From assembly GCA_013285465.1 (NCBI GenBank), contig CP053449.1:2194735-2258734 (forward strand): a DNA stretch of 64,000 bases, given 5' to 3'. Of the stretch, positions 43,435 to 46,686 are shown piece after piece. The translations under genes were made by a program, and so were the position numbers. The DNA is from Pseudomonadota bacterium (GTDB lineage: Bacteria > Pseudomonadota > Alphaproteobacteria > Micavibrionales > CSBR16-224). The notes beneath the pieces were generated by a model. That model was not told the origin of the DNA and searched no databases. It saw nothing but the letters and a program-made list of their open reading frames with translations. Numbering within the stretch: the stretch's first letter is position 1; each line of letters opens with the position of its first letter.

Positions 43435-46400
43435 TTATTCGCTGCGGCGTGACAGCCGGTATTGCCGCCCTGCGGCAAAAGCGCCCTCAATCCGGCTTGT
43501 GCCGCCATCCGGCCATGCAATCTCAATCGCGGAGATGCTTTCTGCCGTATCAAGACCGAAATGCGCCAGCGGCTGGTCATAGGATTTATAGCCGCCGCTG
43601 CCTTTGATTTCACGCATCTGGCGCTTTTCTTCCCCATTCTCCTGATAGGTGATGATGATTTTTGCGCCCAGCCCGCGGGTGTTGCGGGTTTTGTCATCAC
43701 GCAAGGCAATCTGTACGGCATTTTTCGCAATGCCTTTTTCATTCAGATAAATCCGCACCGGCGCATCTGTCGGCACCGCTATAATATCCAGCGCCCCGTC
43801 ATTATTCAGATCAAGATAGCTATAGGCGGCAGTATAACCGTAACCGGTCAATCCGAAATCTTTCCCTGCCTCGGTAAATGTGCCGTCACCGTTATTGTGA
43901 TAAAACAGCACATGATCCAGATTGGGAGAGGCGGAAAAGCCGTTGACGATAAATAAATCCTGCCAGCCGTCATTATCCAGATCGGCGAAACGTGCATTCC
44001 ATGTCCAGCCGCCGAAACCGGTACCTGTTTCCGCTGCGGTATCGGCAAAGCCGCCCGCCATATTCCGTTTCAGCAAAATATTGCTGTTATCGTCATTGCC
44101 GGCTTTCAGCAATGTTTCCGCACGCAGGGTTTTATCCGCCGCATTTTGCTTTGCCTGATGCGCCTTTTGCACAACGTCACAGAAACGCATATAGCGCGTT
44201 GACGCCGCGCCGGACGCACCCGCCATAACATCCTGCGGCAGTTTCTGCACCATGCCTGCCGTATATTCCGCAGGCACACAGCGGGTGCGGTAATTGACCA
44301 GATGAGTCAGACAGGCATTTTTTTCATCCTCATCCGCTAACGCGGCGCAGGCATCGGTGACAAAATTCGCGGCACGCACCAATGCGGTTCGGAATGTGAC
44401 TTCCCTGCGGCATTTCCGCAATGCCTCACCGGAAAGATTCTCCAAAGCGCAGAGACGGTCATGCGTGATGCGTTTTTTGGCGGCGGCGGAAACGGAATCA
44501 TGCGCCGTCATATAGGCGATTTGTCCGATGTAATATTCAGGCTGCAGATCATTATCAATATCACCGCCGTCAATCACCATCGTTGACCGCGCGCCGGAAA
44601 ATTTTTGATTGAACTCTTCTCCCGCAGGTGTAAACCCGCCTTTGCCGTCACCCAGCAACACACGGTCGGAAAATGAGTCCATGATATAGTCATGACCGAC
44701 ATACAGATCAAGATTGCCGTCATTGTTGAAATCGGCGAATTGCGCCGTCATGGTTTCCCCCGTCACGCCGCCGAGAACTTCGCTGTCATAGCCGCGCGGA
44801 TGCTCCGTTGCACGCAGGATCATGTCGCGGGATTGCGGGGCATTGATATAATTCGGCCCCGTACTCCAATTACCGACAAACATATCCAGCCGCCCGTTTT
44901 TGGCAAGATCGGCAAAGCTGATATGCATGGTGGTACCGTCTTTATCGGGACCGAGTTTTTGCAGATTTTCTTCTTTAAACGCACCGCCGTCATTATATAT
45001 GACGTAATTCGCGCCGCTATTGGCCGTAAAAATCACATCCAGCCAGTCATCTCCGTCCAGATCGGCAAGAGCGACCAGCACCACATCCGTCAATTCCTCA
45101 GGCAATGGTAGTTCCTGCCGCAGAAATCCTGCACCGCTATTCGCATAAAGCACCACATTCGGAACGGTTTCAGGATCGCCCATCAGCAGTAGATCGGGGC
45201 GACCGTCATTATGCACATCCCCCGCCGCAACCGACATCGTGTTCAGGGCAAGATTCTGCGGTAGTCCCAGCATATAAGATAAGCGATAGGGTTGCGCGAT
45301 ACCGATTTCCTCACCGTTAAGTCTTGCGAAAAAATCCTTCCATGGTGTTTTTTCCACCCGGGTAAAATCCGCATAGCTCACAGCCAGCCCGTCCGCATTC
45401 GCCGTCATAGCGCTTTCGGGCAATAGATCAAAAACCAGCGGCGTTATTTTCTCCTTAATCTCCTCATAAGACAGCGCTTTGTCGCTGCGCGTGATATAAG
45501 GGTCAAAATGCGCCGGCATTTCGGCCCGGACGGTTTTTTCCGCGACAATGCGTGCCGCATTTCCCAAAACTGTCGTGTCAAAATGCATGGCAATCAGTCC
45601 CAGCGCCATCCCCAGTGCCATTGTCATCCCGAACAGAAAGCAGGCAACGCGGAATGACACAAAGCGCCAGATAATCAAAAAAGCATAGATACTGAATGTT
45701 CCCAGCGTAAACAGCATCACCGCAACATATTGCAGCGGCACACCCGCCTGTAACAACACCGAGGACATAATGACATCAAAGGCAATCGGTGATGGCAGAA
45801 ACGATCCCAACCCTGCCAGCGCCAGCATCACCAGCAGCATTTTTCCGAAATGCGTTTCATCACCAAGCCCGCTGAACATATCCCAGGGAACAATTGTCAC
45901 CAGTAATGTGCCGAGAAACCCCGACAGGATCATCAACGGCAAAATCGTTTTTAAAAGGAAGAACAGGCTTTTGAAATAGCTTTTCACCGCCCATATAAAA
46001 GCCGCAGACCATGTACGGAATTCGCCGTCCTCCGGCACCAAAAAATCCATCTTCAAGCCTTTTCCCTCTGTCGGCGGTACGACTTCCGCCGCCGTTTCCT
46101 TTTTAAAACAAACACGGCAAGCCAGCGGAATCATCACCAGAATAAAAAACAGCGTCAGGAGAATTTTTGCCAGCCCGACATAGAAGGGAAAAATTGTAAA
46201 CATCATCAATACGACCACCACATTCATGGTCGGCGAGGCAATCAGCACCGCCAGCGCGGTTTGCAGACTTGCCCCCGCATCACGGACGGCTTTGGAAATC
46301 GGTACGGCGCAATTGACGCAGACCCCCAACGGCGCGCCGACCCCCAGCCCCAGCAAGCTTCCGGCGAAACCGTTTTTAAAACGGATATTGCGCAGCAGCG

Positions 46401-46686
46401 GCAGCATCGCCAGCAAAAACGCGCCGAATAAAAAGGCGAATGTCATTCCCTTACGGTTGGTATCCATCCAGTTCAGCGTATCCAGCAGCACTTTTTTCCA
46501 AAAAGGAAAGTCAGGTTTGATCTCGAAGACCGGATGAAAGCCGAGACTGGATAAAGGTGCGGAAGCCGCCAGAACAGCCTTGGCATTCAAGGAAGGGTAG
46601 CGCGATGTTGTCCAGAAATGCGTCAGCAACAGCAATGCCGCAATCAGCAAGATTAAAAACGGTTTTATCCGTGCCCGATCAATCAT
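43435..46686 (-). CDS. Permease / FG-GAP repeat / ASPIC-UnbV fusion protein
   Basis: 1083 residues in one uninterrupted frame. Residues 1-375 are a membrane permease of the YraQ/DUF318 (ArsP-like) family: about eight helices with the metal-type Cys pair GVCVNCAVPI at 121-130 and CRVC at 190-193. From about 486 follow seven FG-GAP/VCBS repeats with the calcium signature DxDxDG or close variants, for example ADLDGDDWLDVIF (541-553), ADFNNDGNLDLYV (651-663) and LDLNNDGALDIIA (958-970). A Cys-rich insert (about 745-850) interrupts them. The end, about 985-1065, is an ASPIC/UnbV domain. The part after the permease is presumably periplasmic. I know of no described function for this combination; see findings. 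Confidence 0.85.
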   Translation of the reverse strand: MIDRARIKPFLILLIAALLLLTHFWTTSRYPSLNAKAVLAASAPLSSLGFHPVFEIKPDFPFWKKVLLDTLNWMDTNRKGMTFAFLFGAFLLAMLPLLRNIRFKNGFAGSLLGLGVGAPLGVCVNCAVPISKAVRDAGASLQTALAVLIASPTMNVVVVLMMFTIFPFYVGLAKILLTLFFILVMIPLACRVCFKKETAAEVVPPTEGKGLKMDFLVPEDGEFRTWSAAFIWAVKSYFKSLFFLLKTILPLMILSGFLGTLLVTIVPWDMFSGLGDETHFGKMLLVMLALAGLGSFLPSPIAFDVIMSSVLLQAGVPLQYVAVMLFTLGTFSIYAFLIIWRFVSFRVACFLFGMTMALGMALGLIAMHFDTTVLGNAARIVAEKTVRAEMPAHFDPYITRSDKALSYEEIKEKITPLVFDLLPESAMTANADGLAVSYADFTRVEKTPWKDFFARLNGEEIGIAQPYRLSYMLGLPQNLALNTMSVAAGDVHNDGRPDLLLMGDPETVPNVVLYANSGAGFLRQELPLPEELTDVVLVALADLDGDDWLDVIFTANSGANYVIYNDGGAFKEENLQKLGPDKDGTTMHISFADLAKNGRLDMFVGNWSTGPNYINAPQSRDMILRATEHPRGYDSEVLGGVTGETMTAQFADFNNDGNLDLYVGHDYIMDSFSDRVLLGDGKGGFTPAGEEFNQKFSGARSTMVIDGGDIDNDLQPEYYIGQIAYMTAHDSVSAAAKKRITHDRLCALENLSGEALRKCRREVTFRTALVRAANFVTDACAALADEDEKNACLTHLVNYRTRCVPAEYTAGMVQKLPQDVMAGASGAASTRYMRFCDVVQKAHQAKQNAADKTLRAETLLKAGNDDNSNILLKRNMAGGFADTAAETGTGFGGWTWNARFADLDNDGWQDLFIVNGFSASPNLDHVLFYHNNGDGTFTEAGKDFGLTGYGYTAAYSYLDLNNDGALDIIAVPTDAPVRIYLNEKGIAKNAVQIALRDDKTRNTRGLGAKIIITYQENGEEKRQMREIKGSGGYKSYDQPLAHFGLDTAESISAIEIAWPDGGTSRIEGAFAAGRQYRLSRRSE

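Follow-up and report, generated by a model that had tools for sequence, protein, structure and literature searches.

A permease joined to an FG-GAP propeller and a UnbV domain probably helps the export of surface proteins in Alphaproteobacteria

Introduction

As a rule, proteins of the FG-GAP/UnbV type are secreted and have a binding function. The window analyzed here, a stretch of 64,000 nucleotides of alphaproteobacterial DNA, contains a gene in which such a protein appears to be attached to an ArsP/YraQ-type permease. This raises the question whether the fusion is genuine and, if so, what a permease would do with a large periplasmic domain. A sequence-only reading of the window had suggested that the attached part captures a metal or organometallic ligand, or gates export. 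We compared the gene with its relatives in genomes and plasmids, modeled the encoded protein and investigated the gene neighborhoods.

Results

One uninterrupted frame encodes permease, propeller and UnbV domain

The gene starts with an ATG that is preceded by a plausible ribosome-binding site (AAAGGCGAAATAATG) and has no internal stop codon; its features are listed in Table 1. The ArsP_1 domain (PF03773) scores 41.6 bits against a gathering cut-off of 32.3, and certain orthologues score slightly under this cut-off. FG-GAP_3 matches eight stretches (115 bits), followed by UnbV_ASPIC. By eye and in the alignment, seven calcium-type DxDxDG loops were found (residues 490, 542, 593, 652, 709, 902 and 959), and the insert of approximately 125 residues between loops 5 and 6 contains C746, C759, C780, C792, C803 and C836. 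Open reading frame calling, Pfam and orthologues thus bear out the sequence-only reading, which had described one frame joining these parts, seven calcium-type repeats and a Cys-rich insert at about residues 745-850. Its count of eight permease helices was approximate: the N-terminal part is indeed multi-helical and contains cysteines, but averaged hydropathy of residues 1-370 gives 9-11 peaks, one of which encloses the Cys pair. With a multi-helix permease at its N-terminus, the protein is not of the type that is secreted free by way of a signal peptide. Total and third-position G+C are alike in the permease half, the propeller half and the neighboring genes.

Table 1. Features of the fusion gene in the window (amino acid positions refer to the encoded protein).
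Feature	Position	Strand	Description	Basis
Whole gene	43435..46686	-	permease, FG-GAP propeller of seven blades containing the Cys insert, and UnbV; 1083 aa	ORF, Pfam, orthologues
Permease part, residues 1-370	45577..46686	-	ArsP_1 match at residues 85-366	Pfam, hydropathy, alignments
N-terminal signature FWxxSRYPxL, residues 24-33	46588..46617	-	common to stand-alone permease relatives	(nearly) invariant in alignments
Membrane Cys pair C123-V-N-C126	46309..46320	-	site of the ArsP C(S/T)C motif	unchanged in all 27 fusions and all 3 stand-alone relatives
Linker, residues 371-480	45247..45576	-		low conservation in alignment
Blades 1-5 of the propeller, residues 484-735	44482..45237	-	DxDxDG loops at 490, 542, 593, 652, 709	loops, CRTAC1 fold match
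Six-Cys helical insert, residues 736-860	44107..44481	-	between blades 5 and 6	alignments; helices in low-confidence models
Blades 6-7 of the propeller, residues 890-990	43717..44019	-		Pfam, loops, fold match
UnbV/ASPIC domain, residues 1005-1068	43483..43674	-		Pfam, 54.9 bits

The repeats are predicted to form a single CRTAC1-like propeller

A model of the full-length fusion was poor (mean pLDDT 40.8). Modeling of residues 438-1083 yielded a pTM of 0.60 and a mean pLDDT of 56, with the blades and the UnbV domain better and the insert low. The best solved fold match of this model, whose mean pLDDT of 56 has to be kept in mind, is CRTAC1 (9etn; Foldseek E 9e-19); VIA-align superimposed 429 residues with a Z score of 32.6 and an rmsd of 3.1, while the next propellers reached Z 23. 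CRTAC1 is also the best solved sequence match (E 5e-13). Because the CRTAC1 fold match lies well above the next propellers, the repeats are modeled as one seven-bladed propeller carrying the UnbV domain on its end, which settles in the affirmative whether structure prediction would yield a single propeller. A seven-bladed calcium-type propeller followed by UnbV is shared with the CRTAC1/ASPIC-UnbV FG-GAP proteins (PF13517 plus PF07593). The fusion differs from this type by the attached permease, by the six-Cys helical insert and by not being freely secreted. In the 27 fusions compared, C746 (26 of 27), C759, C780, C792 and C836 are conserved, as is a sixth insert cysteine, the column of which shifts between lineages. 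Stand-alone secreted UnbV proteins of about 550 amino acids from Rhizobiales-type genomes do not have the Cys insert.

The fusion is widespread but rare in Alphaproteobacteria

The assembly carrying the gene consists of one contig of 2.67 Mb. Fusions with frames of 1079-1149 amino acids were detected in seven of the 142 genomes of the window's order, two belonging to one genus (89% identical) and five to another family (43-47%); the full-length, stop-free architecture is found in G001 (89% identity), G024, G033, G111, G112 and G119. At least 20 more fusions (1019-1114 amino acids) are present in Alphaproteobacteria outside this order. Samples of the class and the phylum contained it in three genomes (G510, G163 and G880), and the family of G163, which judging from matching gene clusters is the roseobacter family, has it in 11 of 198 genomes (G163 and ten further ones). 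Among 72,556 plasmid records, eight plasmids with names from Roseobacteraceae and Paracoccaceae carry the fusion, annotated only as 'FG-GAP-like repeat-containing protein'. The same order of domains is therefore present in unrelated alphaproteobacteria, where the sequence-only reading had proposed to look for it.

Full-length homologues number 26 and come from many assemblies as well as from complete plasmids, which makes it practically impossible that two genes were joined here through an assembly or frameshift error; we found no point in favor of such an artefact. Parasedimentitalea marina plasmid pW43A has a fusion frame broken into three annotated genes (L093:12046-15067), apparently a decaying copy.

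Stand-alone permeases of the same subfamily, approximately 32% identical, are encoded in three genomes of the window's order (G008, G040 and G054), and no FG-GAP gene was seen beside them. These propeller-free relatives agree with the earlier remark that permeases of this family usually lack a periplasmic part. Trees of the permease and of the propeller show the same deep groups, both grouping the window's order together and placing G510 and G880 outside Rhodobacterales, with weak support for the deep branches; sharing these groups would fit a single old fusion event. A recent joining of foreign parts was rejected, since both halves are alike in G+C and the two trees agree on the deep groups. 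A phage origin was rejected as well: there was no phage match, no PHROG for the window's protein and no related viral contig.

The open-licence literature contained nothing on a permease with FG-GAP and UnbV, nor on FG-GAP together with type II secretion and permease or Roseobacter; likewise, the sequence-only reading knew of no characterized example. The parts are already known and the combination is new; the protein has apparently not been studied so far.

The permease half departs from the ArsP family

The membrane core is, by HMM, that of the ArsP/COG0701 family (PF03773; YraQ-type, SaoE, SO_0444), and both have a Cys-containing membrane motif followed by Pro. The FWxxSRYPxL signature, C123/C126, the seven loops and the insert cysteines are nearly invariant across the 27 fusions, all of which contain C123 and C126. 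The surveyed ArsP homologues conserve C(S/T)C in the membrane domain (PMC4435449), whereas every fusion has CVNC or CANC. Compared with canonical family members from the same genomes, C123 corresponds to the first Cys of TPFCSCS and the second Cys is located one place later. The fusion is further set apart from the family by the N-terminal FWxxSRYP signature, the large periplasmic part and the missing ars operon. CxNC is also found in the stand-alone relatives; the one in G040 (L078:8260-9378) carries the variant CANCC. A solved structure related to the permease half was not found by sequence.

Since the Cys pair, Pro and Gly are strongly conserved, the permease core is predicted to still move something, and from the family a metal or thiol compound is the natural guess. 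In one explanation, Cu, Zn or As(III) would be transported by way of the Cys pair, and ligand binding or the gating of export would fall to the propeller with its Cys insert. Membership in ArsP_1 (41.6 bits) and the invariant membrane CxNC would suit such a pump, and the best named neighbor is the SO_0444 Cu/Zn efflux model (NF033936; E 4e-9 for a roseobacter member), but the window's protein scores 17.5 bits and the roseobacter member 36 against an equivalog cut-off of 300. Apart from the missing C(S/T)C, none of the fusion copies showed an ars operon in its vicinity: an ArsR-type regulator and a rhodanese gene lie upstream in G112 only, and neighborhoods other than that of G112 showed no metal-resistance annotation. 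Such a pump would also leave unexplained why GspG and the 138-aa protein accompany the fusion, as described below. We consider a metal or metalloid permease unlikely, and a role as arsenic pump is weakened specifically because motif, operon and equivalog scores all fall away. The earlier proposal of capturing or exporting a metal or organometallic ligand is thus not borne out. Its idea of gating export finds no support for such a ligand either; it may hold in the wider sense of protein export, the context being type II secretion and surface proteins.

A 138-aa protein and type II secretion genes accompany the fusion in Rhodobacterales

Co-occurrence was determined in the 198 genomes of the roseobacter-type family, one per genus, using PF08334 (major pseudopilin GspG) as marker for type II secretion systems (T2SS); PF05134 (GspL) was dropped as too insensitive. 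GspG is present in 29 genomes, comprising all 11 with the fusion and 18 of the 187 without it. A 138-aa protein occurs in exactly the 11 fusion genomes. The Fisher p values (1e-10 for GspG, 3e-18 for the 138-aa protein) are optimistic because of shared ancestry and plasmid transfer among the 198 genomes. Of the 72,556 plasmid records, likewise, just eight match the 138-aa protein, and these are the eight that carry the fusion. It has a signal peptide (e.g., L109:7964-8377, plus strand), was never detected apart from the fusion in the samples searched, and gave no Pfam, PHROG or NCBIfam match above cut-off.

To survey the loci, tblastn was performed on 19 Rhodobacterales-type loci with 5-13 kb of flank each. 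The 138-aa gene is located upstream of the fusion on the same strand, at a distance of 0.1-4.3 kb, in 17 of the 19; it lies about 14 kb away in G911 and 40 kb away in Parasedimentitalea. A T2SS gene or prepilin peptidase was found in 11 loci, both Sel1 genes in 15 and an S74 gene in 11. A frequent order is prepilin peptidase, Sel1A, Sel1B, 138-aa protein, (S74 tail-fibre-like protein), fusion, and in four loci the series prepilin peptidase-Sel1A-Sel1B-138-aa gene-fusion is tightly packed with short gaps. On the Tateyamaria plasmid, one strand encodes gspF, gspE, gspD, gspM, gspL, gspK and the pseudopilin genes to gspG, and the opposite strand the prepilin peptidase, two Sel1-type genes, the 138-aa hypothetical protein, the S74 tail-fibre-like gene and the fusion. 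This plasmid of 54 kb (Tateyamaria omphalii pDOK1-4-5; L089, L159) combines the type II secretion system with alginate-lyase, polysaccharide-type and caspase-like genes.

Neighbors of the fusion include secreted S74, Collar, giant Ig-like or DUF11 proteins as well as several modifying enzymes (sulfotransferase, methyltransferase, NodZ-like). The S74 protein is tied less closely to the fusion, occurring in nine plasmid records, one of them betaproteobacterial with neither fusion nor T2SS genes nearby. In G880, the genes on the flanks of the fusion form a lasso-peptide-like set (asparagine synthase, PqqD, sulfotransferase, transglutaminase-like B2, ABC exporter), and phage-Collar proteins, two in number and secreted, are encoded there as well (L087:2792-14123).

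The link to T2SS is firm for one large lineage. With all 11 fusion genomes bearing a T2SS and linkage in 11 of 19 loci, the fusion qualifies as a T2SS accessory gene of Rhodobacterales. It is not a core component: 18 of the 29 GspG genomes lack it, and GspG is missing from the seven genomes of the window's order that encode the fusion.

A further explanation takes both sets of cysteines as its starting point: electrons would pass from the membrane CxNC to the six-Cys insert in the manner of DsbD/CcdA, maturing exported Cys proteins. Both sets are conserved in the 27 fusions, and the insert is missing from stand-alone UnbV proteins; moreover, a rhodanese gene adjoins the fusion in G112, and in G024 and G111 one lies upstream of it on the opposite strand. 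Such a thiol-disulfide relay is nevertheless very doubtful, as the stand-alone permease relatives retain CxNC with no insert at all, Pfam scans revealed no DsbD/CcdA domain and the 138-aa protein contains no cysteine.

Gene neighborhoods vary in the window's own order

In the window, the fusion gene is solitary, being convergent with mdh (4 bp) and divergent from mgtE, with citrate synthase beyond mdh. GspG was found in two of the 142 genomes of the order and in none of the seven with the fusion, so no T2SS link was detected in the window's own lineage. The placement of the gene varies: it lies beside mdh/mgtE in G000 and G001, after the ArsR and rhodanese/YgaP genes in G112, and behind a gene for a 244-aa membrane protein in G024 and G111. 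In G119, it is embedded among Tad pilus genes: the locus encodes CpaC, CpaD, a CpaF-type ATPase and a TPR lipoprotein, with a 416-aa gene taking the place of CpaE. This again points, weakly, to a pilus-type machine, as a single case.

Discussion

The most economical reading is that of an accessory which holds a cargo- or ligand-binding propeller in the periplasm near a secretion machine. We tentatively propose, at somewhat less than an even chance, that the protein sits in the inner membrane, exposes a large receptor domain to the periplasm and serves the export of surface proteins. The joint presence of fusion, GspG and 138-aa protein, the Tateyamaria T2SS plasmid, the surface-protein neighbors, the Tad locus of G119 and the CRTAC1 fold speak for this with the same reserve. 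Against it stand the fusion genomes of the window's order, which do not contain GspG, the solitary position of the window's gene, the 18 GspG genomes that lack the fusion, and the remote 138-aa genes of G911 and Parasedimentitalea. One transmembrane helix would also be enough as an anchor, so the permease must do more than that. Association with GspG and the 138-aa gene by itself does not establish contact or cargo, and many T2SS-linked plasmid genes move jointly as accessory sets.

In the proposed mechanism, the N-terminus would be cytoplasmic and the propeller periplasmic; calcium, as well as disulfides within the insert, would stabilize the latter. Before exported proteins cross the outer membrane through the secretin, the propeller could bind them or help them to fold, the first candidates for cargo being the 138-aa protein and the S74, Collar and Ig-like proteins. 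The permease would serve as anchor and move a metal ion or thiol compound through the Cys pair, as needed for the cargo step. In the window's order, which has no GspG in its fusion genomes, the fusion would act in a different export route.

The permease might also be a degenerate anchor and nothing else, making the protein a membrane-held adhesin or a matrix-binding, lectin-like envelope receptor. The usual role of FG-GAP/UnbV proteins noted above and the position of plasmid copies among exopolysaccharide and giant surface-protein genes would agree with an adhesin; the surface, however, is hardly reachable from the inner membrane, and the strongly conserved Pro, Gly and Cys of the membrane core argue for a retained transport or channel function, which makes this explanation quite improbable.

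A precedent for the preferred reading, an export accessory, is given by LipB and CpaB, which are membrane-bound T2SS chaperones (PMC4713064). Like the fusion, they combine an inner-membrane anchor, a periplasmic cargo-handling domain and a gene beside the T2SS cargo (PMC4713064), the cargo of the fusion being presumed. They differ in having one N-terminal helix, where the fusion has 9-11 hydrophobic peaks, and other periplasmic folds. A more far-reaching version, which we regard as a long shot, is an inner-membrane export factor of a new kind. Its periplasmic propeller, attached to a permease, would catch cargo that is already folded and hand it to a pilus-type secretion machine; release of the cargo would be coupled to the passage of a metal ion or thiol through the Cys pair, and the 138-aa protein would be a dedicated partner or the substrate.

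The data connect COG0701 permeases and FG-GAP/UnbV proteins, both of them poorly understood, with protein export through type II secretion in marine bacteria. If the export reading is true, UnbV propellers gain a working context and the secretion system a possible transporter-type accessory. The perfect co-occurrence is testable in culturable roseobacters such as Leisingera, Phaeobacter and Tateyamaria, and the 138-aa secreted protein, apparently a constant partner of the fusion, is worth studying.

In enediyne clusters, too, an FG-GAP/UnbV protein has a membrane protein as its partner: this is the UnbU-UnbV pair, encoded by adjacent genes in Streptomyces clavuligerus; there the membrane partner is NQR2/RnfD-like, whereas that of the fusion is ArsP-like. 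The window's genome encodes a second FG-GAP and UnbV membrane fusion of 920 amino acids at approximately 1.086-1.089 Mb (L120:8377-11136, minus strand). Its N-terminus is NQR2/RnfD-like, as if the enediyne UnbU and UnbV had been joined, and the gene next to it encodes an Lnt-like apolipoprotein N-acyltransferase.
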